Assembly (NCBI GenBank): GCA_017411305.1
Contig: JAFQQI010000001.1
Span: 1-36,296 of the forward strand
Direction of reading: 5' to 3'
DNA length: 36,296 nt
DNA from: Lachnospiraceae bacterium
Lineage (GTDB): Bacteria; Bacillota; Clostridia; Lachnospirales; Lachnospiraceae
The position numbers and the translations under genes were made by a program. The notes beneath the pieces are model-generated. The model made no database searches. It had not been told where the DNA came from and saw only the letters and a program-made list of their open reading frames with translations. This document shows, one piece after another, positions 22,322 through 36,296 of the stretch. Numbering within the stretch: the first letter of the stretch is position 1; each line of letters opens with the position of its first letter.

Positions 22322-22550
22322 TCCAGTAAAATCAAGGCTTTCGGGCTTTTGAGATTGGATTTTGCAACAAAATTGCAACAAAATCGCAACTGCATAGTGC
22401 TGAATAATGCGTTATTGTGCATATTTCAGTAAAAATGTGGTGAATTCAATTTCATAAATTTTGTATCTTAAAGGACATTTTCCAAGTGAAAACAAGGAAG
22501 ATGTCCTTTTTGTGTTGTAGTCAAAATATTATGATTTGGAGGAAATCAGA
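22322..22550. other. ICE left-end region, candidate attL with tandem TTGCAACAAAA repeats
   Basis: No gene. An imperfect dyad around GGCTTTCGGGCTTTTGAG (22336-22353) follows tuf. Two tandem 11-bp copies of TTGCAACAAAA (22362-22372, 22373-22383) and a third partial TCGCAAC (22384-22390) come next. An interrupted inverted repeat around AATAA-tgcg-TTATT lies further on (about 22403-22417). Tandem direct repeats beside a core dyad are typical of the arm and core sites of tyrosine recombinases. The rest to 22550 is AT-rich, with one strong terminator. Confidence 0.5.
22470..22511 (+). terminator. Strong terminator at the ICE left end
   Basis: A 14-bp stem, AAAGGACATTTTCC (22470-22483) with GGAAGATGTCCTTT (22496-22509, one G-U pair), is followed by a short T-run. 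It should block tuf transcription from entering the ICE genes. Confidence 0.85.
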
Positions 22551-22619
22551 ATGAATAATACAGCGTTAGGTGCAGGAGCGAGAAAGCTCAATATATTATC
22601 TGAACAGCGATGCACATGA
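22551..22619 (+). CDS. 22-residue ORF, possible leader peptide
   Basis: A short ORF (MNNTALGAGARKLNILSEQR, then CT) with TTGGAGG 10 nt upstream. It lies between the left-end terminator and the DUF3970-like gene. The good ribosome binding site is the main support. The peptide resembles no family I can name. It may be a leader peptide that affects translation of the next gene, which starts 20 nt further on, or a chance ORF. Confidence 0.3.
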   Translation: MNNTALGAGARKLNILSEQRCT

Positions 22620-22638
22620 GAGCATGGAGGAGTGTTGA

Positions 22639-22815
22639 ATGTTAAAAGTTAGATTGATGGGAACAAAGAATGATATTAAGTGGTTTGGGAAGATATTACA
22701 GAGAAATCCCAAGATAGAAGTAACAGAGTTTTCAGATGTATACCCGAATAAGGGTACAAAGAGATTCCACAGAGCATATGTGGAGGTAAAGAAACGGAAC
22801 ATAAAGGAACAGTAG
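22639..22815 (+). CDS. DUF3970-like small protein
   Basis: A 58-residue protein beginning MLKVRLMGTKNDIKWFGKIL, with ATGGAGGAG upstream. A conserved-looking middle reads EVTEFSDVYPNKGTKRFHRAYVEV, followed by a basic end. This matches my recollection of DUF3970, a small Firmicutes family often found on mobile elements next to ParA. Function is unknown. It is 19 nt before parA and in the same direction, so co-transcription is likely. Confidence 0.65.
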   Translation: MLKVRLMGTKNDIKWFGKILQRNPKIEVTEFSDVYPNKGTKRFHRAYVEVKKRNIKEQ

Positions 22816-22834
22816 AAAACAAAGGAGAATTATC

Positions 22835-23620
22835 ATGTGTAGAGTAATCGCAATCGCTAATCAGAAAGGTGGAGTAGGAAAGACCACCACAAGTATCAAT
22901 TTAGGAGTTGGTTTGGCTAGATTAGGTCAAAGAGTATTGTTGGTAGACGCTGACCCGCAGGGGCATTTAACCCTCGGATTGGGTTTTCCAAAGAATTTGA
23001 AAGTAACATTAAAAAATATGATGGAAAACATCATTATGGGCATTGAATTTGAGCCTAGAGAGGCTATTTTAAGCCATAAAGAGGGCGTAGATGTGATTCC
23101 GTCCAATAAGTTGCTTACAGGCATGGATATGTCGTTAATCACGGTTGATGACCGGGAATGTGTTTTAAAGGAGTATCTGGAGCTGTTACAAGATGATTAT
23201 GATTATATTATCATCGACTGTATGCCGTCACTCGGTATGCTGACCATAAATGCAATGACAGCAGCAAACAGTGTCTTAATTCCGGTACAGCCACAGTTTT
23301 ATGCAGCAGACGGTCTTACGGAGCTTTTAAAGGTATATAAGGGCACAAAACAGCGTTTTAATCCGGAAATAGAGATAGAGGGTATTCTGTTTACAATGGA
23401 TGCAAGCAGATACAACAATTCAAAGAGAAATAAGAAAGCGGTACATACCGCTTATGGAAATGATGTAAATATATTTGCGGATGCCATACCGAGGTCGGAA
23501 GCCATTGCAGAGATTGCTTCTGAAGGCGTGAGTATCTTTGAATATGACCGTCAGAGTAAAGGCGCAGAAAGCTACGAAAAACTGGCAAGGGAGGTGTTAA
23601 GTCATGCGAAAACCAAATAA
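22835..23620 (+). CDS. parA: ParA-family partition ATPase (Soj-like)
   Basis: 261 residues. The deviant Walker A motif KGGVGKTTTSINLG lies at about residues 11-24, with the signature Lys. It is followed by DADPQGHLT (Walker A' region), then DYIIIDCMPSLGMLTINAM (Walker B and switch) and IPVQPQFYAADG. Such ATPases form patterns on the nucleoid and position DNA bound by ParB. AAAGGAG precedes the ATG. The stop overlaps parB by 17 nt, indicating translational coupling. On ICEs, ParAB stabilises the excised, replicating circle or aids maintenance; this role is inferred here. Confidence 0.93.
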   Translation: MCRVIAIANQKGGVGKTTTSINLGVGLARLGQRVLLVDADPQGHLTLGLGFPKNLKVTLKNMMENIIMGIEFEPREAILSHKEGVDVIPSNKLLTGMDMSLITVDDRECVLKEYLELLQDDYDYIIIDCMPSLGMLTINAMTAANSVLIPVQPQFYAADGLTELLKVYKGTKQRFNPEIEIEGILFTMDASRYNNSKRNKKAVHTAYGNDVNIFADAIPRSEAIAEIASEGVSIFEYDRQSKGAESYEKLAREVLSHAKTK

Positions 23621-24479
23621 GGATATTCAGCTTACCACCTATCAGGATTTGCTTGGTGTAGAGGAAAATACGGGAGCCGGAACGGAAAAAGTAGTGATTG
23701 CTCCATTGACAGAGTTATTTGATTTCAAAGACCACCCGTTTAAGGTGCTTGATGATGAAAAGATGGAAGAAACCACAGAAAGTATTCGTCAGCATGGTGT
23801 ACTTGTTCCGGGTATCGCAAGACCGAGAACAGGTGGCGGTTATGAGTTAATTGCCGGACATCGAAGGAAAAGAGGTTCTGAAAGAGCCGGAAAGTCGGAA
23901 ATGCCGATTATTGTAAGAAACTACACCGATGATGAAGCTACGATTATCATGGTGGATTCCAATATCCAGCGTGAGGATATTTTACCAAGCGAAAAGGCAA
24001 AAGCCTATAAGATGAAATATGAAGCAATGAGACATCAGGGAAAGAAAGCCGGAATGAATACGCTTGATAAGGTGGGCGAAGCTGCCGGAGAGAACGCAAA
24101 AAAGGTACAGAGGTATATCTGGTTGTCCCGGCTATCGGATGAGCTTCTTGATATGGTGGATAAGAAGAAATTAGGCTTTTCACAGGGCGTAGATATTTCC
24201 TTTTTATCAGAGGATGAACAGCAGTGGGTGCAGGTCATTTTAGAGGAGCAGGGATGTAATGTAAGTACAGTACAGTCCGGGAAACTCAAGGAATATGGTA
24301 AAAGGGGAGAGCTTACCTTTGCGATGGTTCGCCTGATCCTAACGGAAGAAAAGCCAAAGGAAAGAAAAGTAACACTGAAAGCTGACAAAATCAGCAAGTA
24401 TTTTGAAGAAGATTACAGCAGTGAAGAAATAGAAAAAATCATCATTCAGTTGTTGGATGAATGGAAGAACAGACAATAG
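23604..24479 (+). CDS. parB: ParB/Spo0J-family centromere-binding protein
   Basis: 291 residues. The N-terminal ParB/Srx domain includes HPFKVLDDEKMEETTESIRQHGVLVPGIARPR and the AGHRRKRGSERAG box, which corresponds to the CTP-binding GERR-type motif of ParB. An IQREDILPSEKAKAY segment follows, then a central HTH region (about residues 140-200), and a Lys/Glu-rich C-terminus for dimerisation. It should bind a palindromic site and spread. It overlaps parA. No canonical chromosomal parS (TGTTTCACGTGAAACA) is seen in the window, but a 25-bp palindrome repeated four times across the element is a candidate target. That pairing is inference. Confidence 0.9.
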   Translation: MRKPNKDIQLTTYQDLLGVEENTGAGTEKVVIAPLTELFDFKDHPFKVLDDEKMEETTESIRQHGVLVPGIARPRTGGGYELIAGHRRKRGSERAGKSEMPIIVRNYTDDEATIIMVDSNIQREDILPSEKAKAYKMKYEAMRHQGKKAGMNTLDKVGEAAGENAKKVQRYIWLSRLSDELLDMVDKKKLGFSQGVDISFLSEDEQQWVQVILEEQGCNVSTVQSGKLKEYGKRGELTFAMVRLILTEEKPKERKVTLKADKISKYFEEDYSSEEIEKIIIQLLDEWKNRQ

Positions 24480-24494
24480 GAAGGGGGACGCAAA

Positions 24495-25559
24495 ATGGAT
24501 AACGGTTTGAAATTCGATTATTATTACGGAGCGGAAGCAGAACAGTTTTCCTTCTACCGTGTTCCAAGATTACTAATTAAGGATGAGCGTTTCAAAGGGT
24601 TATCCAGTGATGCAAAACTTCTTTATGGTCTGATGCTTGACAGAATGTCATTATCAATAAAAAATGGCTGGTTTGATGATGAAAACAGGGCATATATCCA
24701 TTATACGGTAGAAAACATCATGGAAGATTTAGGATGTGCCAGAGCCACTTGTGCAAAGGTCATTGCAGAGCTTGACAGTAAAAAAGGGATTGGTCTGATT
24801 GAGAAAAAAAGGCAGGGACTTGGGAAACCGGATATTATTTATGTGAAGAATTTTGTTGTGGTTGAGCAGAATATACAACCGGAACGAACTGAAAAAGAAC
24901 CCGCTAATACTGATGTTTCCGCAGAAGTTCAAGAATTGAATGACAAGAAATTCAATAATCAGACTTCCAGAAGTTCAAAAACTGAACTTCAAGAAATTCA
25001 AAATGCAGACTTCCGGAGGTTCAATAATCAGACCTCTGGAAGTTCAGAAACTGAATGTGCAGACGTTCAGGAAGTGAACCCTAATTATAACAATACTAAT
25101 TATACTGATTTGAGTTATAACAATCCTATCTATCAATCGGATAGTGACGCAGAAAGAGGGATGGATGGGATGGATGATGTCAATGCATACATAGAAATCA
25201 TAAAAGAGAATATTGAATATGAGCATCATATGAAGTATAGTTCTTATCAGGATAAAGGCTTGTATGATGAATTGTTTGACGTGATTTGTGAGGTGGTATG
25301 TGTAAAGCATAAAACCGTAAAAATCGGCGGGGATGATTACCCGTATGAGTTGGTAAAATCAAAGTTCCTAAAACTGAACAGTTCACATCTTGAATATGTG
25401 ATTGGATGTATGCGAAATACCACAAGTAAGATAGTAAATATCAAGGCATATATGGTGACTGCGCTTTATAATGCGTCAAGTACCATGAATCATTATTACC
25501 AGCAGGAAGTACAACATGATATGTATGGAGGTGGATGGAATGAGAAAGGTATTGTTTAA
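24495..25559 (+). CDS. repA: Replication initiator protein A (RepA N-terminal family)
   Basis: 354 residues. The N-terminal 120 or so residues are the RepA_N winged-helix domain: FSFYRVPRLLIKDERFKGLS, SDAKLLYGLMLDRMSLS, the ENIMEDLGCARATCAKVIAEL recognition segment, and GLIEKKRQGLGKPDIIYVKNF. The middle (about residues 140-200) is low-complexity and repetitive with FNNQTS units. The C-terminal domain (MKYSSYQDKGLYDELFDVICE onward) resembles the conserved end of the initiators of Lachnospiraceae ICEs. Proteins of this family start plasmid-type replication. The repetitive middle encodes seven DNA iterons with a 23-bp period, probably the origin itself. AGGAAGGGGG precedes the start, 15 nt after parB. 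Confidence 0.88.
   Translation: MDNGLKFDYYYGAEAEQFSFYRVPRLLIKDERFKGLSSDAKLLYGLMLDRMSLSIKNGWFDDENRAYIHYTVENIMEDLGCARATCAKVIAELDSKKGIGLIEKKRQGLGKPDIIYVKNFVVVEQNIQPERTEKEPANTDVSAEVQELNDKKFNNQTSRSSKTELQEIQNADFRRFNNQTSGSSETECADVQEVNPNYNNTNYTDLSYNNPIYQSDSDAERGMDGMDDVNAYIEIIKENIEYEHHMKYSSYQDKGLYDELFDVICEVVCVKHKTVKIGGDDYPYELVKSKFLKLNSSHLEYVIGCMRNTTSKIVNIKAYMVTALYNASSTMNHYYQQEVQHDMYGGGWNEKGIV
24924..25084. repeat. Seven 23-bp iterons inside repA (candidate origin of replication)
   Basis: Eight-base cores matching GAAGTTCA occur at 24924, 24947 (GAAATTCA), 24970, 24993 (GAAATTCA), 25016 (GAGGTTCA), 25039 and 25062 (GACGTTCA), each exactly 23 bp from the last. Several units carry a second TGAA or CAGACTTCC block at the same offset. 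Because 23 is not divisible by three, the register shifts through the codons, and the protein repeats only every 69 bp. RepA_N plasmid initiators are known to carry their origin as repeats within the rep gene. Confidence 0.8.
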
Positions 25560-25860
25560 AATAATTCTCCCGGTATTTTTGATTGCACTATGGATGATTA
25601 CCTGTTATCCGGTATGTAATAAAGCAGAAGGATTTGACCTGTTTTTATATTGGATTATGGTAGGGTTTCCGTTTGGAATACATAGGATGTGCTTATGGCT
25701 TGTACCAAGAAACTTTGGTATTGGTGGCAGTATAGGTGTATTTGCGCTGAACTGTATTATAGGCGGTCTGATTGGCGGAGTAGTGTTGATTGTTAAGATA
25801 ATCAAGATTATTGCAGAGATGTTTAAAATGATATTGGGAACTTCTGGACAAAATGTCTAA
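25540..25860 (+). CDS. Small membrane protein, possibly DUF6050
   Basis: About 106 residues with three likely membrane spans: FKIILPVFLIALWMITCYPV, LFLYWIMVGFPFGIHRMCLW and IGGSIGVFALNCIIGGLIGG/VVLIVKIIKIIAEM. The YPV, GFPFGIHRM and NCIIGGLIGG segments recall the DUF6050 family of ICE-borne membrane proteins; that name is from memory. ATG 25540 is chosen because GGAGGTGG lies 5 nt upstream; ATG 25516 lies deeper inside repA. It overlaps repA by 20 nt. Its last codons (GTSGQNV) are written within a copy of the element's 25-bp palindrome. Function is unknown. Confidence 0.65.
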   Translation: MRKVLFKIILPVFLIALWMITCYPVCNKAEGFDLFLYWIMVGFPFGIHRMCLWLVPRNFGIGGSIGVFALNCIIGGLIGGVVLIVKIIKIIAEMFKMILGTSGQNV

Positions 25861-25864
25861 AAGT
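25840..25864. repeat. 25-bp ICE palindrome, copy A
   Basis: Left arm ACTTCTGGACA, spacer AAA, right arm TGTCTAAAAGT. It overlaps the last codons and stop of the small membrane protein gene. It differs from copies B and D at 3 positions. Confidence 0.85.
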
Positions 25865-25866
25865 TA

Positions 25867-25905
25867 AAAAAGCTATTGAAACAGAATTTTCAATAGCTTT
25901 TATTC
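25867..25905. terminator. Bidirectional terminator between convergent ICE genes
   Basis: AAAAGCTATTGAAA (from 25868) pairs with TTTCAATAGCTTTT (25888-25901), with A and T tracts on both sides. It serves the repA-side genes and the minus-strand XRE gene. Confidence 0.85.
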
Positions 25906-26115
25906 TTTTTGCGGTTCGTCTGGCACATACTGCATAATATCTTCAACATTACAGTTAAGAATACGACATAAATTGTTGATAGTGATGGTTTTGACTATCA
26001 TATTGTGTTTTAATCGGTGTATTTGAGCTTTATCTACACCATAATCCTTCATTAAAGAATACTGACTGATGTTTTTATCTTTTAAAGTTTCCCATAAACG
26101 GTCATATACAATCAC
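25900..26115 (-). CDS. XRE-family regulator of the ICE
   Basis: 71 residues, essentially one Cro/C1-type HTH: DRLWETLKDKNISQYSLMKD, YGVDKAQIHRLKHN as the recognition helix, and TINNLCRILNCNVEDIMQYV as the closing helices. The start codon is GTG at 26115-26113, with AAGGAG on the minus strand 10 nt ahead. It is divergent from the 26200 gene and ends in the bidirectional terminator. Small XRE proteins at this position in ICEs usually repress transfer genes or themselves, but no operator was identified in the 84-bp divergent gap. Confidence 0.8.
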   Translation of the reverse strand: MIVYDRLWETLKDKNISQYSLMKDYGVDKAQIHRLKHNMIVKTITINNLCRILNCNVEDIMQYVPDEPQKE

Positions 26116-26134
26116 GGAACCACCACTCCTTCAC

Positions 26135-26163
26135 TTGTATTTTATAAGGTATAGAAGTATAAT
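26135..26163 (+). promoter_or_regulatory. Sigma-A promoter for the 26200 gene
   Basis: TTGTAT (26135-26140) and TATAAT (26158-26163) are separated by 17 bp. It lies in the divergent gap opposite the XRE regulator, which could control it. Confidence 0.7.
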
Positions 26164-26199
26164 AATAGGGTGCGTGTACGCAGACCAAGGAGTGAGAAG

Positions 26200-26628
26200 A
26201 TGCAGATACACAAAGGAAAAGATATTGTATATTTTACGTTGTATGATGAAGATTTATTCCCGTACGGAATTGATGTTAATCATATATTGAACCTGAAACC
26301 TTTTAAGGAAAAACTGATATTAGATTTAAAAGATGCCGGAGAGAAGGAATACGGGAAAAAATTAGATTGTGATATTTGTAAGGTAATCCCAAATGCAGAT
26401 GGAAAAGCGGTAGTATTTGGCATAGCGGAAAAATCGAATATTTACTTTATTGAAAACGAATTTACCGAAGAGGAACGTATTATAGATGGAATACAGGAAA
26501 TGTTCCAATTTCTTCCGGATGATAGGATTGATATGGGTATAATGGACGTAGAAGAAAAGAAAGCCTATTTAGAGTTGCTTCGAAGTAAAGAGGGCAGAGA
26601 GATAATCAGACAGGAGTTTTTGCGGTAG
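26200..26628 (+). CDS. Hypothetical ICE protein
   Basis: 142 residues from ATG 26200, chosen for AAGGAG at 26187-26192; an upstream GTG at 26170 lacks a site. The protein is soluble-looking, with a beta-rich start (KGKDIVYFTLYDEDLFPYGI), a central CDICKVIPNADGKAVVFGIA segment with two Cys, and an acidic helical C-terminus. I recognise no family. It has its own promoter and is followed by another small unknown gene, so the two may form a regulatory or accessory unit. Confidence 0.65.
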   Translation: MQIHKGKDIVYFTLYDEDLFPYGIDVNHILNLKPFKEKLILDLKDAGEKEYGKKLDCDICKVIPNADGKAVVFGIAEKSNIYFIENEFTEEERIIDGIQEMFQFLPDDRIDMGIMDVEEKKAYLELLRSKEGREIIRQEFLR

Positions 26629-26649
26629 ATGTAAAAGGGGAATGTAGTA

Positions 26650-26940
26650 ATGGATGAAAGAATGTTTGAGGAACTAAAAGAAGAAATAAGAAAGAACCGC
26701 ATTGTAGAAAAGAATGCCATATTGGGAATTGTGATTCAGGCAATGGAGAAGGGCGGATTTGGAACTTATGACACAATGGTAGTAGTATGTGAAACAGCGG
26801 ATATATTGGATAATGCAGATTATGGGGAAGCAGAGCAGATATATCGAAAGTGGCTACGAGATGCAAGATACGAAAAAAGTGATTTTCGCAGATTTTGTAA
26901 AAAGGTAAAAGATTACATTAACAGAAAATTGGAGAAATAA
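26650..26940 (+). CDS. Hypothetical ICE protein
   Basis: 96 residues, highly charged and mostly helical by eye (MDERMFEELKEEIRKNRIVE at the start, basic KKVKDYINRKLEK at the end). No membrane span, Cys pattern or HTH is obvious. GGGG 12-15 nt before the ATG is a weak ribosome binding site. It lies 21 nt after the preceding unknown gene, so co-transcription is likely. A terminator follows directly. Function is unknown. Confidence 0.65.
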   Translation: MDERMFEELKEEIRKNRIVEKNAILGIVIQAMEKGGFGTYDTMVVVCETADILDNADYGEAEQIYRKWLRDARYEKSDFRRFCKKVKDYINRKLEK

Positions 26941-26949
26941 ACAGCGTTA

Positions 26950-26990
26950 GGGCAGTTATGAACGATTAGAGTTTGTAGCTGCCCTTTTTT
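26950..26990 (+). terminator. Rho-independent terminator before the transfer module
   Basis: GGGCAG (26950-26955) pairs with CTGCCC (26979-26984) across a 23-nt loop, followed by TTTTTT. It separates the maintenance/regulatory genes from the conjugation genes. Confidence 0.75.
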
Positions 26991-26997
26991 ATTGCTT

Positions 26998-27022
26998 ACT
27001 TTTGGACAAAATGTCCAGAAGT
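26998..27022. repeat. 25-bp ICE palindrome, copy B
   Basis: Left arm ACTTTTGGACA, spacer AAA, right arm TGTCCAGAAGT; the arms differ at one base. It sits between the terminator and the GGAAAGGAG site of a short ORF leading into pcfB. Confidence 0.9.
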
Positions 27023-27036
27023 GGAAAGGAGAGAAA

Positions 27037-27075
27037 ATGAAGTATTTACTGCACAGGCTGTATGTTCCACCTTAG
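27037..27075 (+). CDS. 12-residue ORF, possible leader peptide of the transfer operon
   Basis: MKYLLHRLYVPP, with AAAGGAG 7 nt upstream, ends 37 nt before pcfB. The strong ribosome binding site just after palindrome copy B, and before the first transfer gene, suggests a leader peptide. A chance ORF cannot be ruled out. Confidence 0.25.
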   Translation: MKYLLHRLYVPP

Positions 27076-27112
27076 CGGAAGTATGGCTGTAAGAAACTAA
27101 AGGAGGAAAACC

Positions 27113-27589
27113 ATGCAGGAGGAAACAACACAAAAAACGATTGCCCTTGTTTTTAAATCCTCTAGGCTGACCGCTGATGTGCTGAAAAAAGCCATGAAGT
27201 TGTATCTGGAACACCGCAGAGCCGGGAAACAGGCAACACACGGAAAGATTTCAGTAAAAGAATTGGTAGGACAGGGTATGGGAGCTTCGAGTATTGAGGT
27301 TACGGATAACAACATCAAATCCTTTGAGAGAGTGGCGAAGAAATACAATGTAGACTTTGCCGTGAAAAAGGATAAGACGGTGGAACCACCGAAGTATATG
27401 GTATTTTTCAAGGGCAAGGATGCCGATGTGATTACACAGGCATTTAAGGAGTTTGTAAAGGTTAATGAAAAGAAACGTGGCAGAGTATCTGTAAAAGAGA
27501 AGCTGGCAGAATTTAGGGAGCTGTTAGGTAAGGACAAAAACAGAGACAGAGCAAGGGAGCATCAAAAGGACAGGGGACAGTCGCTATGA
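27113..27589 (+). CDS. PcfB-family (DUF3801) relaxosome accessory protein
   Basis: 158 residues. The N-terminus (TIALVFKSSRLTADVLKKAM) and the VKELVGQGMGASSIEVTDNN motif are characteristic of DUF3801/PcfB. The middle has YMVFFKGKDADVITQAFKEF, and the C-terminus is Lys/Arg-rich. PcfB of enterococcal plasmid pCF10 helps link the relaxosome to the coupling protein. AAAGGAGG precedes the ATG. Its stop overlaps the virD4-like start by 4 nt (ATGA), giving translational coupling that fits this partnership. Confidence 0.88.
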   Translation: MQEETTQKTIALVFKSSRLTADVLKKAMKLYLEHRRAGKQATHGKISVKELVGQGMGASSIEVTDNNIKSFERVAKKYNVDFAVKKDKTVEPPKYMVFFKGKDADVITQAFKEFVKVNEKKRGRVSVKEKLAEFRELLGKDKNRDRAREHQKDRGQSL

Positions 27590-29427
27590 GTAAAGTCATA
27601 GAGGGGATAGTCAAAGATTTAAAAGCAGTTCCACAAAAGCTTACCTCTGAAATGAAAAAGGTGGATAAAAAGAAGTTTATTCTTATGAATCTGCCATACG
27701 TTCTTATGGGTTACTTTTGTAATAAAGTAGCATGGCTATGGAGAACATCGCCGGGGAAAAATGCTTCCGATAAGATGTTAGCAACCATGAATGGGTTGGA
27801 AGATTTGTTTTCCAATCCGTTACCGAGCCTTTTTCCAAAAGACTTATTGATAGGAGTGATGTGCGGTATCGTATTCCGTCTTATGGTGTATTTTAAAGCT
27901 AAGAATGCCAAAAAGTTTCGACATGGCGTGGAATACGGTTCTGCAAGGTGGGGAACGGCAAAGGATATAGAGCCATACGTTGATCCGGAATTTGAGAACA
28001 ACGTGCTTTTAACAGAAACAGAACGGCTTATGATGTCCGGCAGACCAAAGGAGCCGAAGTATGCAAGAAATAAAAATATTCTTGTTATCGGCGGTTCCGG
28101 TTCCGGTAAGACCAGATTCTTTGTAAAACCAAACCTTATGCAGATGCACAGCTCCTATGTAGTTACTGACCCGAAGGGAACGGTGCTTGTGGAGTGCGGA
28201 AAAATGCTTGTAAAAAACAAATACAAAGTCAAAGTTTTGAATACCATTAACTTTAAGAAATCCATGCACTACAATCCTTTTGCTTATATCCGAAGCGAAA
28301 AGGATATTTTGAAACTTGTAAACACAATTATTCTCAACACCAAAGGAGAGGGACAGCAATCCGGTGAAGATTTTTGGGTGAAAGCAGAAAAGCTCTATTA
28401 CACTGCACTTATCGGGTATATCTGGTATGAATGTGTGGAGGAAGAACAGAATTTCACTACTTTGCTTGACATGATAAATGCCAGTGAAGCAAGGGAGGAT
28501 GATGAAGAATTTAAAAATCCGGTGGATTTAATGTTTGAGGAGCTGGAGGAGCGTGAGCCTGACCATTTCGCAGTAAAGCAGTATAAAAAGTACAAACTTG
28601 CTGCAGGTAAGACAGCAAAATCTATTTTGATTAGCTGTGGTGCGAGACTTGCACCATTTGATATTAAGGAGCTTCGTGATTTGACAAGCTATGATGAATT
28701 AGAGCTTGATATGTTAGGGGATGAAAAGACAGCACTGTTTGTCATTATCTCTGATACAGATGATACATTTAATTTTATCGTGTCAATCATGTACACACAG
28801 CTCTTTAATCTGCTTTGTGACAGAGCAGATGATGTGTATAACGGCAGACTGCCTATTCATGTTCGTTGTCTGTTAGACGAGTTTGCGAACATCGGGCAGA
28901 TACCTAAGTTTGAGAAGTTGATTGCGACTATCCGTAGCCGTGAAATATCAGCTTCTATTATTTTGCAGTCAAAGTCACAGCTTAAGGCAATTTATAAAGA
29001 CAACGCAGATACCATAGAGGGCAACTGTGATACCACACTATTCCTCGGTGGGAAGGAAAAGACCACGCTAAAAGAGCTGGCAGAAGTTTTGGGTAAAGAA
29101 ACCATTGACCTTTATAATACCTCGGATACGAGGGGTACGAGCCAGTCTTACGGTCTGAATTACCAAAAGACCGGAAAGGAGCTTATGAGCCAAGACGAGA
29201 TTGCGGTCATGGACGGTGGCAAGTGCATTATGCAGCTTAGAGGGGTAAGACCATTCTTCTCCAATAAGTTCGATATTACCAAGCATAAGCAGTATCATTT
29301 GCTTTCTGACTATGACGAAAAGAATACCTTTGACATCGAAAAGTATGTGAAGAACCTTAACAGAGCAAAGATAAGAAACAACGACACCATTGATGAGGTG
29401 GAAGATGTCGGGGAAATCGCAGCGTAA
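27586..29427 (+). CDS. VirD4/TraG-like type IV coupling protein (CD1115 family)
   Basis: 613 residues. Two N-terminal membrane spans (about residues 30-50 and 85-105) anchor a cytoplasmic ATPase. The Walker A motif GGSGSGKT is at about 168-175 and is followed by the YVVTDPKGTVLVECG segment. The Walker B region is HVRCLLDEFANIGQIPKFEK (about 425-443), followed by IRSREISASIILQSKSQLKA. The protein recruits the relaxase-DNA complex to the secretion channel. It is coupled to pcfB by overlap and followed by a 253-nt non-coding gap with palindrome copy C and a structured region. Confidence 0.95.
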   Translation: MSKVIEGIVKDLKAVPQKLTSEMKKVDKKKFILMNLPYVLMGYFCNKVAWLWRTSPGKNASDKMLATMNGLEDLFSNPLPSLFPKDLLIGVMCGIVFRLMVYFKAKNAKKFRHGVEYGSARWGTAKDIEPYVDPEFENNVLLTETERLMMSGRPKEPKYARNKNILVIGGSGSGKTRFFVKPNLMQMHSSYVVTDPKGTVLVECGKMLVKNKYKVKVLNTINFKKSMHYNPFAYIRSEKDILKLVNTIILNTKGEGQQSGEDFWVKAEKLYYTALIGYIWYECVEEEQNFTTLLDMINASEAREDDEEFKNPVDLMFEELEEREPDHFAVKQYKKYKLAAGKTAKSILISCGARLAPFDIKELRDLTSYDELELDMLGDEKTALFVIISDTDDTFNFIVSIMYTQLFNLLCDRADDVYNGRLPIHVRCLLDEFANIGQIPKFEKLIATIRSREISASIILQSKSQLKAIYKDNADTIEGNCDTTLFLGGKEKTTLKELAEVLGKETIDLYNTSDTRGTSQSYGLNYQKTGKELMSQDEIAVMDGGKCIMQLRGVRPFFSNKFDITKHKQYHLLSDYDEKNTFDIEKYVKNLNRAKIRNNDTIDEVEDVGEIAA

Positions 29428-29456
29428 AACTGAATATGGAACTTTTATAACACAGA

Positions 29457-29481
29457 ACTTTTGGACAAAAAGTCCAGAAGT
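29457..29481. repeat. 25-bp ICE palindrome, copy C
   Basis: Left arm ACTTTTGGACA, spacer AAA, right arm AGTCCAGAAGT. It differs from copies B and D by one base. As at copy B, GGAAAAGGAG follows directly. Confidence 0.9.
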
Positions 29482-29497
29482 GGAAAAGGAGTTTTGA

Positions 29498-29611
29498 ATG
29501 TGCTTTAGGATGAAACAAAAAAACATCCGATACCATAGGTCGCTAAACTGTAAGTATCGGATGCCAGTGAGGGAAATCCTAAAGGAATGCCCTGTCCTGA
29601 TTTTATCATAG
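29498..29611 (+). CDS. 37-residue ORF between virD4-like and maff2
   Basis: A short basic ORF (MCFRMKQKNIRYHRSLNCKY at its start, PVLILS at its end) with AAAAGGAG 6 nt upstream. It runs through both hairpins of the structured region. The ribosome binding site and its place after palindrome copy C argue for translation. The overlap with strong RNA pairing argues that the codons may be by-products of an RNA. It matches no family I know. Confidence 0.35.
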   Translation: MCFRMKQKNIRYHRSLNCKYRMPVREILKECPVLILS

Positions 29612-29625
29612 GATGGGGCATTTTA
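29524..29625 (+). ncRNA. Candidate structured RNA upstream of maff2
   Basis: Two hairpins. The first is CATCCGATAC/GTATCGGATG (29524-29533, 29554-29563), perfect over 10 bp with a 20-nt loop. The second is GCCCTGTCCT/AGGATGGGGC (29589-29598, 29610-29619), 10 bp with two G-U pairs. A short ATTTTAC follows. It could be a leader or attenuator of the maff2-virB4 operon, an sRNA, a weak terminator for virD4, or a DNA site. No known RNA family is recognised. Confidence 0.45.
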
Positions 29626-29680
29626 CACGAAAAAACTCTTTCAATTACTAAAAATTTATGGAAAGAAAGAGGAAAAGAAA

Positions 29681-29896
29681 ATGGCATTTTTTACAACAGC
29701 AGTAACAGGTTTAAAGACAGTAGTAACAGCAATCGGCGGTGGTGTCGGTGTATGGGGTGTGATTAACCTTTTGGAAGGTTACGGAAATGATAATCCCGGT
29801 GCAAAGTCACAGGGTATCAAGCAGCTCATGGCAGGTGGCGGTATTGTAATCGTGGCTCAGACGGTGATTCCTCAGCTTACTACTCTGTTCTCATAA
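29681..29896 (+). CDS. Maff2-family membrane protein
   Basis: 71 residues with two membrane spans separated by a short polar loop: TVVTAIGGGVGVWGVINLLE and IKQLMAGGGIVIVAQTVIPQ. The NPGAKSQGIKQLMAGGG motif is diagnostic of Maff2, a family found between the coupling-protein and TrbL-like genes of clostridial ICEs. Its likely role, by analogy with VirB2/VirB3-sized proteins, is as a small membrane component of the transfer channel. AAAGAGGAAAAG precedes the ATG. The next gene starts 5 nt after its stop. Confidence 0.9.
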   Translation: MAFFTTAVTGLKTVVTAIGGGVGVWGVINLLEGYGNDNPGAKSQGIKQLMAGGGIVIVAQTVIPQLTTLFS

Positions 29897-29901
29897 GATA
29901 G

Positions 29902-30774
29902 ATGGGTGGAATCATTGACAAAATTACTGACTTCATAAAGGAAATGCTGCAAGGGTGGGTGCTGTCCAATCTGTCAGCCATGTTTACCGATGTCAATGAC
30001 AAGGTAGGCACGATTGCCGGAGAGGTCAGCAAAACACCAAGCACATGGAACGCTGGTATTTTCAGTATGGTTCAGACTTTATCAGAAAACGTAATAGTTC
30101 CCATAGCCGGAATGGTAATCAGTTTTGTACTTATCTATGAACTGATATCAATGGTAATCGACAAAAACAACATGCACGATTTTGATACAGGCTTGTTTTT
30201 CCGCTTTCTATTCAAGGCGTGTATTGCAGTCATGTTACTTAGCAAGACCTTTGACATTGTAATGGCAGTATTTGACGTGGGAAGCCATGTAGTGACAGAG
30301 GCGGCAGCACATATTTCCGGTTCTACAAATCTGGATGTGGAAGCAACGCTTACCACGATGTTTAATAACCAGATTGGAAGCATGGGAATAGGAGAACTGA
30401 TAGGACTAGGAATGGAAACCATGATAATCAGCTTATGTATGAAAATCATGTCAGTCCTCATCACCGTCATTTTATACGGACGAATGATTGAAATATACCT
30501 TTATGTTTCAGTATCACCGATTCCGGCAGCAACCGTTACCAACAGGGAATGGGGAAGTGTCGGAACGAACTATTTAAAGGGACTTATCGCATTAGCATTT
30601 CAAGGATTTTTCATTATGGTATGTGTGGCAATCTATGCCGTGTTAGTAGCCGGTGTGGCAGTAGCAGGCAATCTCCACAGTGCTTTATGGTCTGTGGCAG
30701 CCTACACCGTAATCCTTTGCTTTAGCTTATTTAAGACGGGTTCCTTATCTAAATCAATATTCAATGCCCACTAA
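29902..30774 (+). CDS. TrbL/VirB6-like channel protein (CD1112 family)
   Basis: 290 residues. A polar N-terminal amphipathic segment precedes about six membrane helices, including VIVPIAGMVISFVLIYELIS, LFFRFLFKACIAVMLLS, ISLCMKIMSVLITVILYG and LIALAFQGFFIMVCVAIYAV. The motif PIPAATVTNREWGSVGTNYLKG between the later helices is typical of the family. VirB6/TrbL proteins form the inner-membrane channel of type IV secretion. The start has little ribosome binding site of its own and lies 5 nt from the maff2 stop, so it is probably translationally coupled. Confidence 0.9.
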   Translation: MGGIIDKITDFIKEMLQGWVLSNLSAMFTDVNDKVGTIAGEVSKTPSTWNAGIFSMVQTLSENVIVPIAGMVISFVLIYELISMVIDKNNMHDFDTGLFFRFLFKACIAVMLLSKTFDIVMAVFDVGSHVVTEAAAHISGSTNLDVEATLTTMFNNQIGSMGIGELIGLGMETMIISLCMKIMSVLITVILYGRMIEIYLYVSVSPIPAATVTNREWGSVGTNYLKGLIALAFQGFFIMVCVAIYAVLVAGVAVAGNLHSALWSVAAYTVILCFSLFKTGSLSKSIFNAH

Positions 30775-30803
30775 ATGGGTATGCACACGAAAAGGAGCAG
30801 ACT

Positions 30804-31205
30804 ATGGCAATTTCAGTACCCGTGCCAAAAGACTTGAGTGGCATCAAAACCAAAGTAGCATTGAATCTGACTAAAAGACAGATTATCTGTTTTAGCGGAG
30901 CTGCCATAACAGGAGTTCCCATTTACTTTCTCACAAAGGGAGTATTGGGAACCTCGGCAGCTTCTTTGTTAATGGTCGGAATCATGTTGCCATTCTTCTT
31001 TGTGGCAATGTATGAAAAGGACGGTTTCCCGGCAGAGAAAATCCTGTACTTCATGATAAGGCAGAAGATACTGACACCGGGAATCAGACCTTATAAATCA
31101 GAAAACCTCTATGAACAGTTGGAGGAGCGAGAACGAATTAAGAAGGAGGTACGTTATCTTGAAGAAAAAGCAGTCAGCGAAAGCAATTCCGCTAACGGGC
31201 AGTAA
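30804..31205 (+). CDS. PrgI-family membrane protein
   Basis: 133 residues. The N-terminus MAISVPVPKDLSGIKTKVAL is the PrgI signature. Two membrane spans follow (about residues 30-70), then FPAEKILYFMIRQKILTPGIRPYKSENLYEQ and a charged helical tail. PrgI is a VirB3-like inner-membrane partner of the VirB4 ATPase. AAAGGAG precedes the ATG. The 3' end overlaps the virB4-like gene by 47 nt. Confidence 0.92.
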   Translation: MAISVPVPKDLSGIKTKVALNLTKRQIICFSGAAITGVPIYFLTKGVLGTSAASLLMVGIMLPFFFVAMYEKDGFPAEKILYFMIRQKILTPGIRPYKSENLYEQLEERERIKKEVRYLEEKAVSESNSANGQ

Positions 31206-33642
31206 AATACCGGGGAAATCCGGTCTTAGCTTTGCAGAAAAAAAGCGGTTGGCTGAGCTTAAACGTACTCTTGCCGGAAACAGTAAAGAACAGGCAAAAC
31301 CTGACACCGCACAGAAAACCATTACCTTTAAAAAGATGTTCCGTGACGGCATCTGTCAGGTCACTCATAGATTTTATACAAAGATGGTGGAGTTTTACGA
31401 CATCAACTATGATTTGCTGGAGGTGGAAGATCAGGGAGATATTCTGGAAGAGTACAGTAAACTTATCAATTACTTTGACCCGTCGATAAAGTTTGAATTG
31501 TTTTTATTCAACAGACAGGTTAATGAACAGGCACTTGCAGACCAGTTCGATATTCCTTTGCAGAAAGATGATTTTGACGATATCCGTGAGGAATACACAC
31601 AGATGCTACAACATCAGTCAGCAAAAGGAAATAACGGTATCATTAAATCCAAGTATCTTATTTTTGGGGTGGAATGTACCGGATATAAGGAAGCAAAGAG
31701 CAAATTAAATAACATCGAGAAAGATGTTGTGAGAAACTTAAATAACATAGGCACAAACGCCCGGTCTTTAGACGGAAAGGAAAGACTTCGTATCCTGCAT
31801 GAGTATTTCAATCAGGGAACGATGGAACCTTTCCGTTTTTCATTTAAGGAATTATCAGAGTCCGGTAAATCCGTAAAAGATTACATTGCACCGCCGGGAT
31901 TTGATTTCCGCTATCCAAGCAGGTTTAAGTCCGGCAGTATCTACGGAAGTGTGTCTTATCTTGATATTATCGCACCGAGATTTAATGACGAGCTGTTAAA
32001 GAAGCTCCTTGATATTGATGATAACCTTACCGTGACCATGCACATGCAGACGATGGACCCGGTAAAGGCTATCAAGATGTTAAAAGGCGCTTTGACCAAC
32101 ATTCAGAAAATGAAAATCGAGGAGCAGAAAAAAGCAGTCCGCAGTGGGTACGATATGGATATTTTACCTACGGACATCATCACGTATGAAAAGGATACCT
32201 TAGAGCTTTTGGATGACCTTAACAGCAGTAACCAGAAGATTGTCAAAATGACATTCTTAATTACCTGTTACGGAAGAACCAAGAGAGAGTTAGAGAACCT
32301 GACACAGAGGGTGTCCGGTATCATTCAACAGGCAAACTGCAATTTACGATGCTTGCAGTATTTACAGGAGCAGGGCCTTATGGCATCTGCACCGATTGGA
32401 TGCAATGACACGGGAATTGAAAGGGTGCTGACAACCAAAAGCACAGCGATTTTGGTTCCTTTCTGTACACAGGAGTTATTCATGCCCGCACCCGCCATTT
32501 ATTACGGTTTAAATGCACTTAGCAACAACATGATCATGGCAGACCGTAAACGGCTTCGTACACCAAACGGCGTGATACTTGGAACGCCGGGTAGTGGAAA
32601 GAGTTTTAGTGCGAAAAGAGAAATTTTATCCTGCTTTTTAATCACAAGGGATGACATCATCATTTGTGACCCGGAGGGCGAGTATTTCCCATTGGTACAG
32701 GCATTAAAGGGACAGGTGGTAAGGCTGGCAACCAATTCCAAAGATTACTTAAATCCGATGGATATTCAGCTTAGCCATAAAAACGATAAGGAAGCACTGA
32801 AATTAAAGAGTGACTTTTTAATTACTTTGTGTGACCTGATTGCCGGAGGAAAAGACGGACTGGCAAATGATGAAAAAGGTATCATTGACGATTGTATTCG
32901 TCATATCTATGATACCTACTTTGAAAATCCGGTGCCGGAGAATATGCCTATCTTAGAGGATTTGTATAATGCCCTCTTAAAATATGAGCCTAGAAATGTG
33001 GCAAAGGAGCTTGCCGGGGAAGCAAAGGCAAAAGCGGTCAGAATTGCCAACAGTCTTGTGCTCTATGTGCATGGTTCACAGAATTACTTTAACCACAGGA
33101 CAAACGTGGATTCCCAGAACCGTATCATGTGCTTTGACATTAGGGATTTGGGAAATCAGTTAAAAGAGATTGGTATGTTAATCGTACAGGATGCGGTATG
33201 GAACAGGGTTTCCAAAAACAGGGAACGCAAGATTGCCACAAGATACTATTGTGACGAGTTTCATTTGCTTTTGAAGGAAAAGCAGACCGCCATTTATTCT
33301 GTGGAAATCTGGAAGAGATTCAGAAAATGGGGAGGTATCCCAACAGGGCTTACGCAGAACGTGGGTGACTTCTTAAAGTCAGAGGAAATCGAGGGCATCC
33401 TGGGCAACAGTGACTTCGTGTATCTGCTCAATCAGAATGCCAAAGACCAGCATATCTTGGCGGATAAGTTGGGACTTTCTGAAAAGCAGCTCATGCACGT
33501 AACCAATTCCGAACCGGGAAGCGGTCTGATTTTATTTGATAACGTGGTCATTCCGTTTGTGGATAAATACCCGACAAATACCAAGACCTATGCAATTATG
33601 AACACCAAACCGGAAGAAATCGCAAAAAGTGAGGTAAGTTAA
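31159..33642 (+). CDS. VirB4-like type IV secretion ATPase, with TTG start
   Basis: 827 residues from TTG 31159, chosen because AAGGAGGT (31143-31150) lies 8 nt upstream and the product then begins with Lys-rich residues as in relatives. The ATG at 31111 lies inside prgI and has no site. The N-terminal domain contains DILEEYSKLINYFDPSIKFE. The ATPase core has Walker A GTPGSGKS (about residues 475-482), then IICDPEGEYFPL, and the Walker B YYCDEFHLLL (about 695-704). VirB4 powers pilus or channel assembly and substrate transfer. It ends TAATG, sharing one base with the next gene's start. Confidence 0.95.
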   Translation: MKKKQSAKAIPLTGSKIPGKSGLSFAEKKRLAELKRTLAGNSKEQAKPDTAQKTITFKKMFRDGICQVTHRFYTKMVEFYDINYDLLEVEDQGDILEEYSKLINYFDPSIKFELFLFNRQVNEQALADQFDIPLQKDDFDDIREEYTQMLQHQSAKGNNGIIKSKYLIFGVECTGYKEAKSKLNNIEKDVVRNLNNIGTNARSLDGKERLRILHEYFNQGTMEPFRFSFKELSESGKSVKDYIAPPGFDFRYPSRFKSGSIYGSVSYLDIIAPRFNDELLKKLLDIDDNLTVTMHMQTMDPVKAIKMLKGALTNIQKMKIEEQKKAVRSGYDMDILPTDIITYEKDTLELLDDLNSSNQKIVKMTFLITCYGRTKRELENLTQRVSGIIQQANCNLRCLQYLQEQGLMASAPIGCNDTGIERVLTTKSTAILVPFCTQELFMPAPAIYYGLNALSNNMIMADRKRLRTPNGVILGTPGSGKSFSAKREILSCFLITRDDIIICDPEGEYFPLVQALKGQVVRLATNSKDYLNPMDIQLSHKNDKEALKLKSDFLITLCDLIAGGKDGLANDEKGIIDDCIRHIYDTYFENPVPENMPILEDLYNALLKYEPRNVAKELAGEAKAKAVRIANSLVLYVHGSQNYFNHRTNVDSQNRIMCFDIRDLGNQLKEIGMLIVQDAVWNRVSKNRERKIATRYYCDEFHLLLKEKQTAIYSVEIWKRFRKWGGIPTGLTQNVGDFLKSEEIEGILGNSDFVYLLNQNAKDQHILADKLGLSEKQLMHVTNSEPGSGLILFDNVVIPFVDKYPTNTKTYAIMNTKPEEIAKSEVS

Positions 33643-36140
33643 TGGCACAGACAAAGAAAGGAAAAGAGAGTGCTTTTCAGGCAAGGGATTCCACTTTCCA
33701 TAAGGGAAGTGGAGAAGTGCCAAAAAAGAAAAACTCTTCAAAGGCTCATTCAAAAAAAGAATATGGAGCTACTTTTGGACAAAATGTCCAGAAGTCAGAT
33801 GCAGAGCCGGGAGCCGAACCCAAAACGGATTTTTCCAAAGAGAATAATGCTTTTTTTACAGAAAGCGGACAGGAGCAGTCAGAAGAAAGAGAAAAAAAGC
33901 AGAGTTCTTCGGAAGATTATCACCGCAGGGACACATACAGGCAGTCGCAGAAAAAAGGGACGTATCAGAAAAAGCGTGTGCAGAAAGAGCATTCAAGCAG
34001 AGAGCGTGTGAAAGATGCCACGTTTACGGATGATGCCGGAAGTGTTTTTAAAGAGGATAGCACGGATGAATTTAGCGGTAGTAAAAAGCTTAAGAAAAAG
34101 CACAAACAGGCACAGAGAGCCGGAAAAAAGGTGGAAAAGGCAAAGGCGAAGCTGCCTAAGAAAAGGGAATATACATTGCAGAGAGTGTTTGATGAAGAAA
34201 CAGGCAGAGCAAAGTATGTAGTTGTTCCCTTTGATACAAAAAAGCCTTTTAAGCAGGAAGCAATGCATAAGTCCACCATGAAAAGATTGCAGAATGAGAG
34301 CCGGAATTTTGTGCATGGAAAGGTTGCAGAATCAGAGAAAGAAAATTCAGCCGTAGAGGGTGCCCATAAGACGGAGCAGAGAGCAGAGGAATTATTTGCT
34401 TTTGTAAAAAGGCAGTATGAGGGCAAGGAGCATAGGCAGAGGGCAAAAGTGGCAAAACTTGAGAAAAAGCAGTTCCAGAAGGAAGTCAATTTCCAGTATC
34501 AGAAATTTGTGGAAGAAAACCCACAGATACAGAAAAAAGCATTGCAGAAACGGATTCAGAAACAGCGTATCAAGCGTGAGTACATGAAAGCAAAGCGGAA
34601 AGGAAATGCTTCAAAAAATGCAGAGCAGGCAGTGGTGCAAACAAAAAATGCAGCCACAGCCATTGCAAAGAAACTGCAAGAGTTGGCAAGTAAAAATATA
34701 GGCGTGTTTGCTACCGTTGGAGTGGTGGCAATTCTGCTTATTATGATTATGACTTCCGTATCGTCCTGTGGGGCGATGTTTGCAGATACGCAGTCCACTG
34801 TCTTAGCTGCAAGTTACCTTAGTAAGCCAAAAGAAATAGATGCAACGGATTTGCAGTTTACCCGTTTAGAGCTTGATTTACAGAATGAGATTGACCGTAT
34901 TGAAACGGATTATCCGGGATATGATGAGTATTCCTATAATCTTGGGGAAATCGGTCACAATCCGTTTACGTTAATCGGGTATCTGTCTGCTATTCACACA
35001 GAGTTTACCGCAACAGAAGTAGAAAGCGAAGTACAGGCACTTTTTGAGGAAATGTATGAGCTGACTACCGAAGCAGTGACAGAAACAAGGACAAGGGAAG
35101 TGCAGTCCACAGATGAAGCCGGAAACCTTTTATATGATGAAGCCGGGGAGCCTGTCATGGAAGAAGAGGAATATGAGGTTACGGTCTTAAAGGTGGTGCT
35201 TACAGTAACACCGCTTGAAGATATTGTAGCGGGTAAAATGAACGCAGAGCAGACCGAACTATTCTCCATGTATAAGGAAACGGGCGGACTGTTACAGGAA
35301 TTTGATACTCCGGTCAAACTGTATTGGTATAACTATATCAGTAGTTATTACGGGTATCGCAAAAATCCGATTACTGGAGAGGAGCAACTGCACAGGGGTG
35401 TGGATATTGCAGTACCCACAGGAACTAATGTATATGCTACCCATGACGGAACGGTGACACAGGCAGCCTATGACAGCCATTATGGAAATTATGTGGTGTT
35501 GGAGCTTGACGGATATACCACAAAATACGCCCACATGGAAACGGTAAGTGTCAGTACCGGACAGACGGTGGAAAAAGGAACGATTATCGGTACAACAGGA
35601 AACACGGGAAGCAGTACCGGAAGCCATTTGCATATAGAATGTTTGTATAACGGGGAGTATTACAACCCGTTATTTTATTTTGATGTGGGAACCGGGACGA
35701 TTTATGGAGAAGCCATTGACCGTGACCCGACAGACGTAATACCACCGGATTCCTATGATGATGCAAGCGTACAGGCTCTAATGGAGGAAGCAGCCAGATA
35801 TTTAGGATACCCGTATGTGTGGGGTGGTTCCACACCGGATACAAGTTTTGACTGTTCCGGCTTTGTATGCTGGGTATATACAAATAGTGGCGTACACAAT
35901 CTGCCACGAACCACAGCACAGGGCATTTATAACCAATGTACTCCGGTTTCGCCAAGTGAAGCAAAGGCGGGGGACATTATCTTTTTTACAGGTACTTATA
36001 ATTCGCCGGGAGCTGTAAGTCATGTAGGTATTTATTGTGGCGATGGCGTGATGATACATTGCGGAGACCCAATCAGCTATGCAACCATTACATCGTCCTA
36101 TTGGCAGAGCCACTTTTACAGTTTTGGAAGATTGAATTAA
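33642..36140 (+). CDS. Two-domain conjugative wall hydrolase: M23 peptidase + NlpC/P60 (CD1108 family)
   Basis: 832 residues. Residues 1-350 are cytoplasmic, highly charged and Lys/Gln/Glu-rich, with no known fold. One membrane span follows at about 353-373, then an extracellular stretch with an acidic linker. An M23 endopeptidase domain (about 555-675) has HRGVDIAVPTG and HLHIE supplying the zinc His/Asp ligands. An NlpC/P60 domain (about 715-832) has Cys in DCSGFVCWVY and His in SHVGIYCGDG. The protein should open peptidoglycan so the transfer channel can cross the wall, like TraG/VirB1-type hydrolases of Gram-positive systems. Its start overlaps virB4 by 1 nt. A copy of the 25-bp palindrome lies within codons 44-52. 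Confidence 0.93.
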   Translation: MAQTKKGKESAFQARDSTFHKGSGEVPKKKNSSKAHSKKEYGATFGQNVQKSDAEPGAEPKTDFSKENNAFFTESGQEQSEEREKKQSSSEDYHRRDTYRQSQKKGTYQKKRVQKEHSSRERVKDATFTDDAGSVFKEDSTDEFSGSKKLKKKHKQAQRAGKKVEKAKAKLPKKREYTLQRVFDEETGRAKYVVVPFDTKKPFKQEAMHKSTMKRLQNESRNFVHGKVAESEKENSAVEGAHKTEQRAEELFAFVKRQYEGKEHRQRAKVAKLEKKQFQKEVNFQYQKFVEENPQIQKKALQKRIQKQRIKREYMKAKRKGNASKNAEQAVVQTKNAATAIAKKLQELASKNIGVFATVGVVAILLIMIMTSVSSCGAMFADTQSTVLAASYLSKPKEIDATDLQFTRLELDLQNEIDRIETDYPGYDEYSYNLGEIGHNPFTLIGYLSAIHTEFTATEVESEVQALFEEMYELTTEAVTETRTREVQSTDEAGNLLYDEAGEPVMEEEEYEVTVLKVVLTVTPLEDIVAGKMNAEQTELFSMYKETGGLLQEFDTPVKLYWYNYISSYYGYRKNPITGEEQLHRGVDIAVPTGTNVYATHDGTVTQAAYDSHYGNYVVLELDGYTTKYAHMETVSVSTGQTVEKGTIIGTTGNTGSSTGSHLHIECLYNGEYYNPLFYFDVGTGTIYGEAIDRDPTDVIPPDSYDDASVQALMEEAARYLGYPYVWGGSTPDTSFDCSGFVCWVYTNSGVHNLPRTTAQGIYNQCTPVSPSEAKAGDIIFFTGTYNSPGAVSHVGIYCGDGVMIHCGDPISYATITSSYWQSHFYSFGRLN
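33771..33795. repeat. 25-bp ICE palindrome, copy D (inside CDS)
   Basis: Identical to copy B: left arm ACTTTTGGACA, spacer AAA, right arm TGTCCAGAAGT. It lies within the coding region of the wall hydrolase, encoding ATFGQNVQKS in its low-complexity N-terminal part. Confidence 0.9.
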
Positions 36141-36155
36141 CAGGAAGTGAGAACT

Positions 36156-36296
36156 ATGACAAAGAGTCAGAAATTAGAAAAAGAGATTGTAAAAGTCCGG
36201 GAACAACTTGCTTCTTTACAGGCAAAGTTAAAGGACTTGGAAGAACAGAAACACATGGCAGAAAGAGCCGAAAAGATTGAGTTCATGGAAAAGAAC
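36156..36296 (+). CDS. DUF4315-like small protein (3' end outside window)
   Basis: Open from ATG 36156 to the window end (47 codons) with GGAAGTGAG upstream, 15 nt after the wall hydrolase stop. The sequence is a Lys/Glu/Leu-rich coiled coil (LEKEIVKVREQLASLQAKLK, then DLEEQKHMAERAEKIEFM). This matches DUF4315, a small protein usually placed directly after the CD1108-like hydrolase in these ICEs. Function is unknown. Confidence 0.7.
   Translation, partial: MTKSQKLEKEIVKVREQLASLQAKLKDLEEQKHMAERAEKIEFMEKN

Follow-up and report, generated by a model that had tools for sequence, protein, structure and literature searches.

The window analyzed here, a 36,296-nucleotide stretch of DNA from a Lachnospiraceae bacterium, contains part of a conjugative element, which we take to be Tn1549-like, with four copies of a 25-bp palindrome. 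Comparative sequence analysis predicts that each palindrome is a parS-like binding and loading site for the ParB protein encoded at positions 23604–24479 of the same element (probability about 0.88). The site system is ParB–parS in kind, with new features added: an odd-numbered, 25-bp site, the number of its versions, its insertion in frame into parB, long ParBs with dispersed sites and no nearby ParA, and mixed sites on elements devoid of ParB. The sites, their link with ParB, the covariation of residues with bases and the slots in which sites recur were all computed directly.

The four copies lie exactly where an earlier note, made from the letters of this DNA, had placed them: 25840–25864 (A), 26998–27022 (B), 29457–29481 (C) and 33771–33795 (D); none is assigned to a strand. 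The palindrome had no match in 100 dinucleotide shuffles of the window, and no further copy with up to three mismatches was present in the window, including the chromosome to the left of the element, as the note had claimed. It was also right that B and D are identical, and that A and C differ from them at three positions and one position, respectively; copy A has two arm mismatches. The supposed common orientation held only in part: the AAA spacer agrees in all four copies, but the asymmetry at arm position 5 (T/C) runs in one direction in B, C and D and in the other in A, and a shared orientation says little in any case, because the site is a near-palindrome. A search of the draft genome (2.89 Mb in 123 contigs, 82.6% complete) with the 16-base core (up to two mismatches) returned A–D and two weaker matches, versus three for the reversed pattern, and no other copy as good as A–D. 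The end of the window is the contig end (36296), which cuts the element, so four copies is a minimum.

Copy A overlaps the 3′ end of the DUF6050 ORF (TSGQNV-stop), 36 nt from a small XRE gene, and is separate from a terminator-like hairpin at 25868–25901 (no strand) between these two convergent genes, as the earlier note had described. The 23-mer core of copy B lies 91 nt ahead of the DUF3801 start and that of copy C 31 nt past the CD1115 gene; both copies directly precede ribosome-binding-like stretches, as had been noticed before, and a promoter scan of 25500–30000 gave no promoter-like match at either. Copy D lies in frame within the 5′ part of a CD1108-type gene (TFGQNVQKS), and the palindromes of CD1108 and DUF6050 are translated in the same reading frame. 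The canonical chromosomal 16-bp parS, already reported as missing, had no match in the window at up to three mismatches; plasmid-type ParABS systems do not demand it.

A link between site and protein was obtained from covariation. Half-sites were assigned to 127 of 157 unique ParBs, with 55 different commonest hexamers. Removal of the 30 ParBs without a half-site, 18 with a two-mismatch in-gene palindrome and one shorter than 270 aa left 108 ParBs with 46 hexamer versions. Mutual information was calculated between 271 ParB columns (>85% occupied, insertion excluded) and the half-site bases, and compared with 200 shuffles. The earlier note had proposed looking for covariation of the motif with the HTH region of ParB: the four highest-ranking columns were the equivalents of Caulobacter ParB residues 174, 162, 173 and 201, which paired with half-site positions 6–8, 5–6, 7 and 10, respectively. 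Caulobacter numbering was carried over through Thermus Spo0J, in which Q162, G170, K171, R173, N178, G201 and R204 match the residues named in the available text of PMC7383237. All 23 ParBs with arginine at 201 had C at position 10, and the other listed residues were accompanied by A in 77 of 80 (the remaining five of the 108 ParBs have rarer, unlisted residues). Similarly, the pairings of residue 174 with position 7 were K-G in 37/38, R-G in 28/28, N-C in 12/12 and E-C in 9/9. According to the same available text, residues 162, 173 and 201 are contact or specificity residues of ParB/Noc, R201 of Noc favours C at position 6 of its site (NBS), and parS, with A at the corresponding base, is bound by ParB variants that have G, or C/S/T, as residue 201 (PMC7383237). 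The R201–C pairing observed here thus matches the measured Noc rule. In a comparison of ParB pairs stratified for background identity, residues 162 and 174 took the first and second ranks of 259 columns. Different sites occur even in some pairs with a background identity of about 90% (94% for L197/L231).

Prediction from the four residues, with training restricted to ParBs less than 60% identical, yielded 78% correct hexamer bases; taking the commonest base gave 59%, and taking the hexamer of the closest ParB by whole sequence gave 60%. The window ParB has L, A, K and S at the equivalents of 162, 173, 174 and 201, which predict TGGACA, and its hexamer was predicted exactly under this identity limit. 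A separate check was performed on 20 further records from plasmid and phage collections, encoding 21 ParBs, 18 of them with a site. The position-10 rule was right in 16 of these 18 (wrong for L336, mixed for L348) and the rule linking 174 to position 7 in all 10 ParBs to which it applied. By contrast, there was no signal that ParBs of one genome avoid equal hexamers: 58 of 61 pairs differed, versus about 59 expected from shuffling (G300/G028 and G306/G124 look like one genome each, entered twice).

The distribution of the sites is also linked to ParB. Enrichment on elements with this protein, another check that had been suggested, was found in the 80 best of the CD1115 loci listed for named genomes: sites were present in 19 of 23 loci with ParB versus 8 of 57 without (Fisher P = 1e-8), and reversed controls gave 1/23 and 1/57, respectively. 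For five of the eight site-bearing loci with no ParB in the fetched stretch (L086, L087, L094, L097 and L122), a ParB was later found upstream on a contig of equal length (L207, L203, L190, L189 and L200, respectively); the other three are L065 and L088, which reach contig ends, and L100. ParB was present without a site at four loci: L127 and L131, which have in-gene palindromes with two mismatches, and L060 and L061, which have two copies with an arm one base shorter. ParB and a site occurred without a transfer module in 14 of 60 loci of at least 15 kb.

In a broader search, the 21-base core (up to two mismatches) was detected in 28 of 299 genomes, including that of the window, the reversed control giving one match in each of two genomes. 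The neighbourhoods of relatives contained up to 11 copies per 20 kb (up to three mismatches) in both orientations, and the first relatives had two arm types, TGGACA and GGGACA. The architecture, CTTY-N6-NNN-N6′-RAAG, is constant in relatives and the hexamer variable. A scan for this pattern (CTTY, a hexamer, a three-base spacer, the complementary hexamer and RAAG, with one mismatch tolerated outside and one inside) identified 207 sites in the window and loci L037–L150, versus 25 in the reversed sequences. The hexamers included TGGACA, GGGACA, CCGACA, GCGACA, GGACC types, GGGCCA, GTGCCC and others, varying between elements and nearly constant inside one element. Dispersed sites reuse the same slots under different hexamers, often 39–92 nt ahead of DUF3801, 1–52 nt past CD1115, just past TrbL, 21–28 nt ahead of PrgI, in the 5′ part of CD1108 or at the end of DUF6050; in some elements, sites also occur at greater distances. 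One locus (L050:5249–5919) has four identical palindromes at a 216-bp period within a CD1108-type gene, perhaps a repeat expansion of the coding sequence.

Many relatives carry the site within parB, mostly at nucleotides 416–521 (commonest position 458), as an insertion encoding T-S-x-Q-x-x-x-K or similar between the N-terminal domain and the HTH. All 62 in-parB palindromes with no more than one mismatch share a reading frame, no frame having been imposed in the search; five at 872–1148 in longer ParBs and one at 68 lie outside the main range. The long ParBs of L040, L042 and L146 contain a two-mismatch palindrome in another frame, so it is the DNA, not the peptide, that seems to be conserved. 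In an alignment of 18 ParBs (A3), the insertion is absent from the ParBs of the dispersed-site elements (the window, L047, L067, L084, L189 and L212) and from that of L060. Elements have the site either within parB or scattered over the transfer region, seldom in both places: among 115 unique ParBs from loci of at least 9 kb, 58 had only an in-gene site, 41 only external sites (two or more in 38, one in 3), 15 neither and one an in-gene site with at least two external sites. In 40 shorter loci, the corresponding numbers were 18 in-gene only, 5 external only and 13 neither, and the 4 with both were long ParBs with GGGCCA. A second ParB of the same family is encoded in the genome of the window (L315; G000:C111:82892–84355), with the in-gene palindrome GTATCT.

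The window ParB (plus strand; PF02195, E = 1.4e-17) has GHRR and NIQR motifs, and the corresponding CTP-binding motifs, G-H-R-R and N-x-Q-R, are invariant in all 18 sequences of alignment A3, the profile of which matched Spo0J (1vz0) through the HTH with E = 3.7e-29. The earlier note had offered a centromere for ParB as one of two candidate roles, and the covariation of HTH residues, the separate records and the presence of the site inside parB in many relatives together favour it strongly. Several points nonetheless count against our interpretation. The window ParB scored 20.6 bits with Pfam HTH_ParB, just short of the 22.6 cut-off, and, as stated above, 30 of the 157 ParBs had no assigned half-site; three of the 21 in the separate records (L332, L342 and L333) had no site. 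The covariation shuffles ignore phylogeny, and in the stratified test residue 173 ranked 12th and residue 201 only 246th of 259, presumably because close pairs seldom change residue 201. The four residues were selected on the ParB set that was also used for the prediction test, and six of the 18 check ParBs shared 90% identity or more with one in the training set; with these six removed, the position-10 rule was right in 10 of 12. Elements with no ParB also carry sites (see below). Base 1 of the Noc site is, as we take its numbering, the outermost one. The fit of residue 173 is looser, with position 7 here versus base 1 in Noc in the available text of PMC7383237.

We infer binding, clamp formation, sliding and two functions for this ParB. 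A dimer would read both TGGACA half-sites through the HTH and then, given the CTP-binding motifs, probably close into a clamp at the site and slide away from it over the transfer region. Several such sites, kilobases apart, would let ParB clamps cover the transfer module. The likeliest use in this element would be partition of the excised, replicating form, as suggested by the presence of ParA, together with damping of the expression of transfer genes, as by KorB on RK2. The copies are unlikely to be classical operators, because B and C have no promoter match, A is located where two genes converge and D is within a gene; loading sites for a sliding clamp would fit better. The sites may have a double role like those of KorB, in loading and in gene control.

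A stronger version of the latter idea, in which the ParB sites serve chiefly for gene control, in the manner of KorB and BisD, with partition secondary or absent, is a serious possibility at somewhat less than even odds. Among ParBs preceded by 1.5 kb or more of sequence, a parA gene lay within 3 kb of none of the seven long ParBs (at least 400 aa; L042, L142, L143, L144, L146, L147 and L240, 432–528 aa) versus 44 of the 47 shorter ones. Five of these seven have dispersed sites, and 10–12 dispersed sites each were present in the other long-ParB loci L040, L183 and L186. As ParA is absent nearby in all seven, their dispersed sites may serve something besides ParA-driven partition. The retention of transfer-region slots while the hexamer changes points in the same direction, as does the behaviour of KorB, which, in the available text of PMC11790492, loads at OB, slides and silences promoters up to 1.5 kb away. 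However, the window does have parA, the placement of its copies off promoter-like matches argues against this explanation, and the ParA of long-ParB elements could be encoded elsewhere.

It is highly improbable that the palindrome belongs to a second, uncharacterised protein, such as RepA_N, with a specificity that travels with ParB. RepA_N was encoded in 33 of 41 multi-site loci and in a mobilizable element without ParB (L054), but in only 3 of 14 long loci with ParB and a site and no CD1115 (the 41 and 14 loci contain ParB by selection), and this explanation does not account for the best covariation being with the DNA-contact residues of ParB. The other role offered in the earlier note, an operator for an element-wide regulator such as the VanU-like XRE protein, fares slightly worse still. 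The short distance from copy A to the XRE gene and the ribosome-binding-like stretches following B and C would fit it, but among the 41 ParB loci that span at least 9 kb and have more than one site (some of the loci redundant), only 6 gave an XRE match, a distribution on which it was rejected as the general binder; moreover, the hexamer covaries with HTH residues of ParB, many elements, including some that lack a transfer module, have the site within parB, and no promoter-like match is found at B or C. Least probable of all is an RNA hairpin acting on the transcript: complete RNA pairing is possible for the arms of B and D when G-U pairs are allowed, and B and C precede ribosome-binding-like stretches, but the sites occur in both orientations, none of the four Rfam matches in 22000–36296 (E ≤1, all below gathering) covers a palindrome, and the arm mismatches (10 G-U, 33 A-C and 39 other in genes; 100, 80 and 76 externally, chance matches included) do not clearly favour preservation of G-U on the sense strand, so that a hairpin or terminator was rejected.

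Among known systems, the closest layouts are the scattered parS of IncC plasmids and the operators of KorB. The window shares with KorB of RK2 a ParB-fold protein and sites dispersed over a conjugative element, and the ParB profile matched KorB (8qa8) N-terminally (profile positions 52–132, E = 1.4e-9). The OB sequence differs from the window palindrome, and sites beside promoters, as for KorB, were not seen. KorB is described in the available text as a CTPase clamp of ParB fold with operators distant from its target promoters (PMC11790492), which resembles our proposal. The available text on IncC plasmids reports imperfect parS palindromes, mostly in 12–14 core copies, scattered over the conjugative backbone, binding of ParB to the tested sites by gel shift, and two parS mimics on the mobilizable island SGI1 (PMC10954446). 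Dispersal of imperfect palindromes on a conjugative element is common to both; the IncC site is a 22-bp inverted repeat, the comparison is by description, and the text available contains neither a residue–base code nor an in-gene insertion. Chromosomal ParB–parS and Noc–NBS share ParB_N and the HTH, the specificity residues and the R201–C rule, but the chromosomal parS is an even, 16-bp palindrome with little variation, whereas the sites described here are odd, 25 bp long, have three bases at the centre and occur in dozens of hexamer versions (PMC7383237, available text). BisD, a ParB-like clamp on an integrative conjugative element of Pseudomonas putida, is said to regulate gene expression (PMC12704722, available text), and is likewise compared by description. 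Diversification of partition specificity among related conjugative plasmids is known from the ParR groups of Clostridium perfringens, which belong to ParMRC rather than ParABS (PMC9426499, available text). Of the features of ParABS, the ParB N-terminal domain, the HTH, an adjacent parA and a palindromic site matched to the HTH were all found computationally in the window, a canonical chromosomal parS being the exception. A literature search of titles and abstract starts, with few subscription papers covered, found no parS for Tn1549/CD1115-type elements.

The element lies past an ORF that we read as EF-Tu (21134–22321). Its genes, on the plus strand unless indicated otherwise, are, in order, parA (22835–23620), encoding the Walker ATPase partner of ParB (Pfam AAA_31, E = 2.5e-59); parB; a RepA_N/DUF6017 replication initiator-like gene (24495–25559; PF06970, E = 2e-26, and PF19481, E = 6.2e-39); the DUF6050 gene (25516–25860; PF19517, E = 4.9e-14); the small, VanU-like XRE gene (25900–26115, minus strand; PF13443, E = 4.7e-17, with 39 bits for the VanU model, cut-off 150); DUF3801 (27113–27589; PF12687, E = 1.8e-38); the VirD4-like coupling protein of the CD1115 family (27586–29427; NF045973, 578 bits); and Maff2 (29681–29896; PF12750, E = 9e-35). 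These are followed by TrbL-, PrgI- and VirB4-like genes (names also from our reading), the wall hydrolase gene of CD1108 type (33642–36140; profile matches to M23/NlpC-P60) and the contig end. Between copy C and Maff2, a CATCCGATAC/GTATCGGATG stem lies in the stretch 29500–29620, where a terminator-like stem is also visible by eye; Rfam gave no match there at E ≤1.

Sites were also found on elements with no ParB. The mobilizable element L054 encodes RepA_N, a Mob_Pre relaxase and a serine recombinase, and no ParB was detected in the 15–20 kb around each of the members of its family (L053–L056). A relaxase search of 150 genomes returned 26 places, of which 12 formed a close group (11 with at least 91% identity, and L368, with 85% over half the protein). 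No ParB was found in any of these 12, eight of which had one or two sites; L357–L360 had none within 3.8–3.9 kb. Eight of the other 14 places (45–80% identity) adjoin a ParB with an in-gene site; in the remaining six, no site with any of the known hexamers was present. In five ParB-less mobilizable elements, a tandem pair of sites 26 bp apart combines different hexamers, TGGACA with GGGACA or GGGCCA with TGGACA (L351:252–300, L355:147–195, L368:2284–2332, L370:3747–3795 and L056:10172–10220). A denser array, of seven palindromes with different hexamers within about 850 bp and weaker ones beyond, was identified at L017:1136–1984 (the same place as L377:1899–2747; G169:C11), between a gene that we read as a serine recombinase and the GajB/GajA (Gabija) genes, with no ParB in the 12 kb read around it. 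A DNA search of 150 genomes for relatives of the array returned 15 loci, none with a second array; in five the match was to a single palindrome within another parB locus, and in one to an isolated palindrome lacking a ParB.

Such sites may, by analogy, be read by the ParBs of other elements, the precedent being SGI1 with its two mimics of IncC parS. The chromosomal parS is nearly invariant, and the specificity study in PMC7383237 mutated, in its available text, one ParB–Noc pair. The 46 natural site versions with matched ParBs make a recognition code directly testable, and yield a rule by which sites can be found in a large group of conjugative elements; ParB-less hitch-hikers are suggested to read that code as well. 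We tentatively propose, as an idea that could well prove wrong, that a code linking ParB and centromere evolves fast on the mobile elements of gut Firmicutes, and that the sites of ParB-less elements are stolen centromeres or decoys. If so, ParB lineages would own their hexamers, and the frequent in-frame site in parB would let reader and site travel together. ParB-less elements would hold sites for several foreign ParBs, exploiting or interfering with many conjugative elements, in a many-helper version of the trick that SGI1 plays on IncC.

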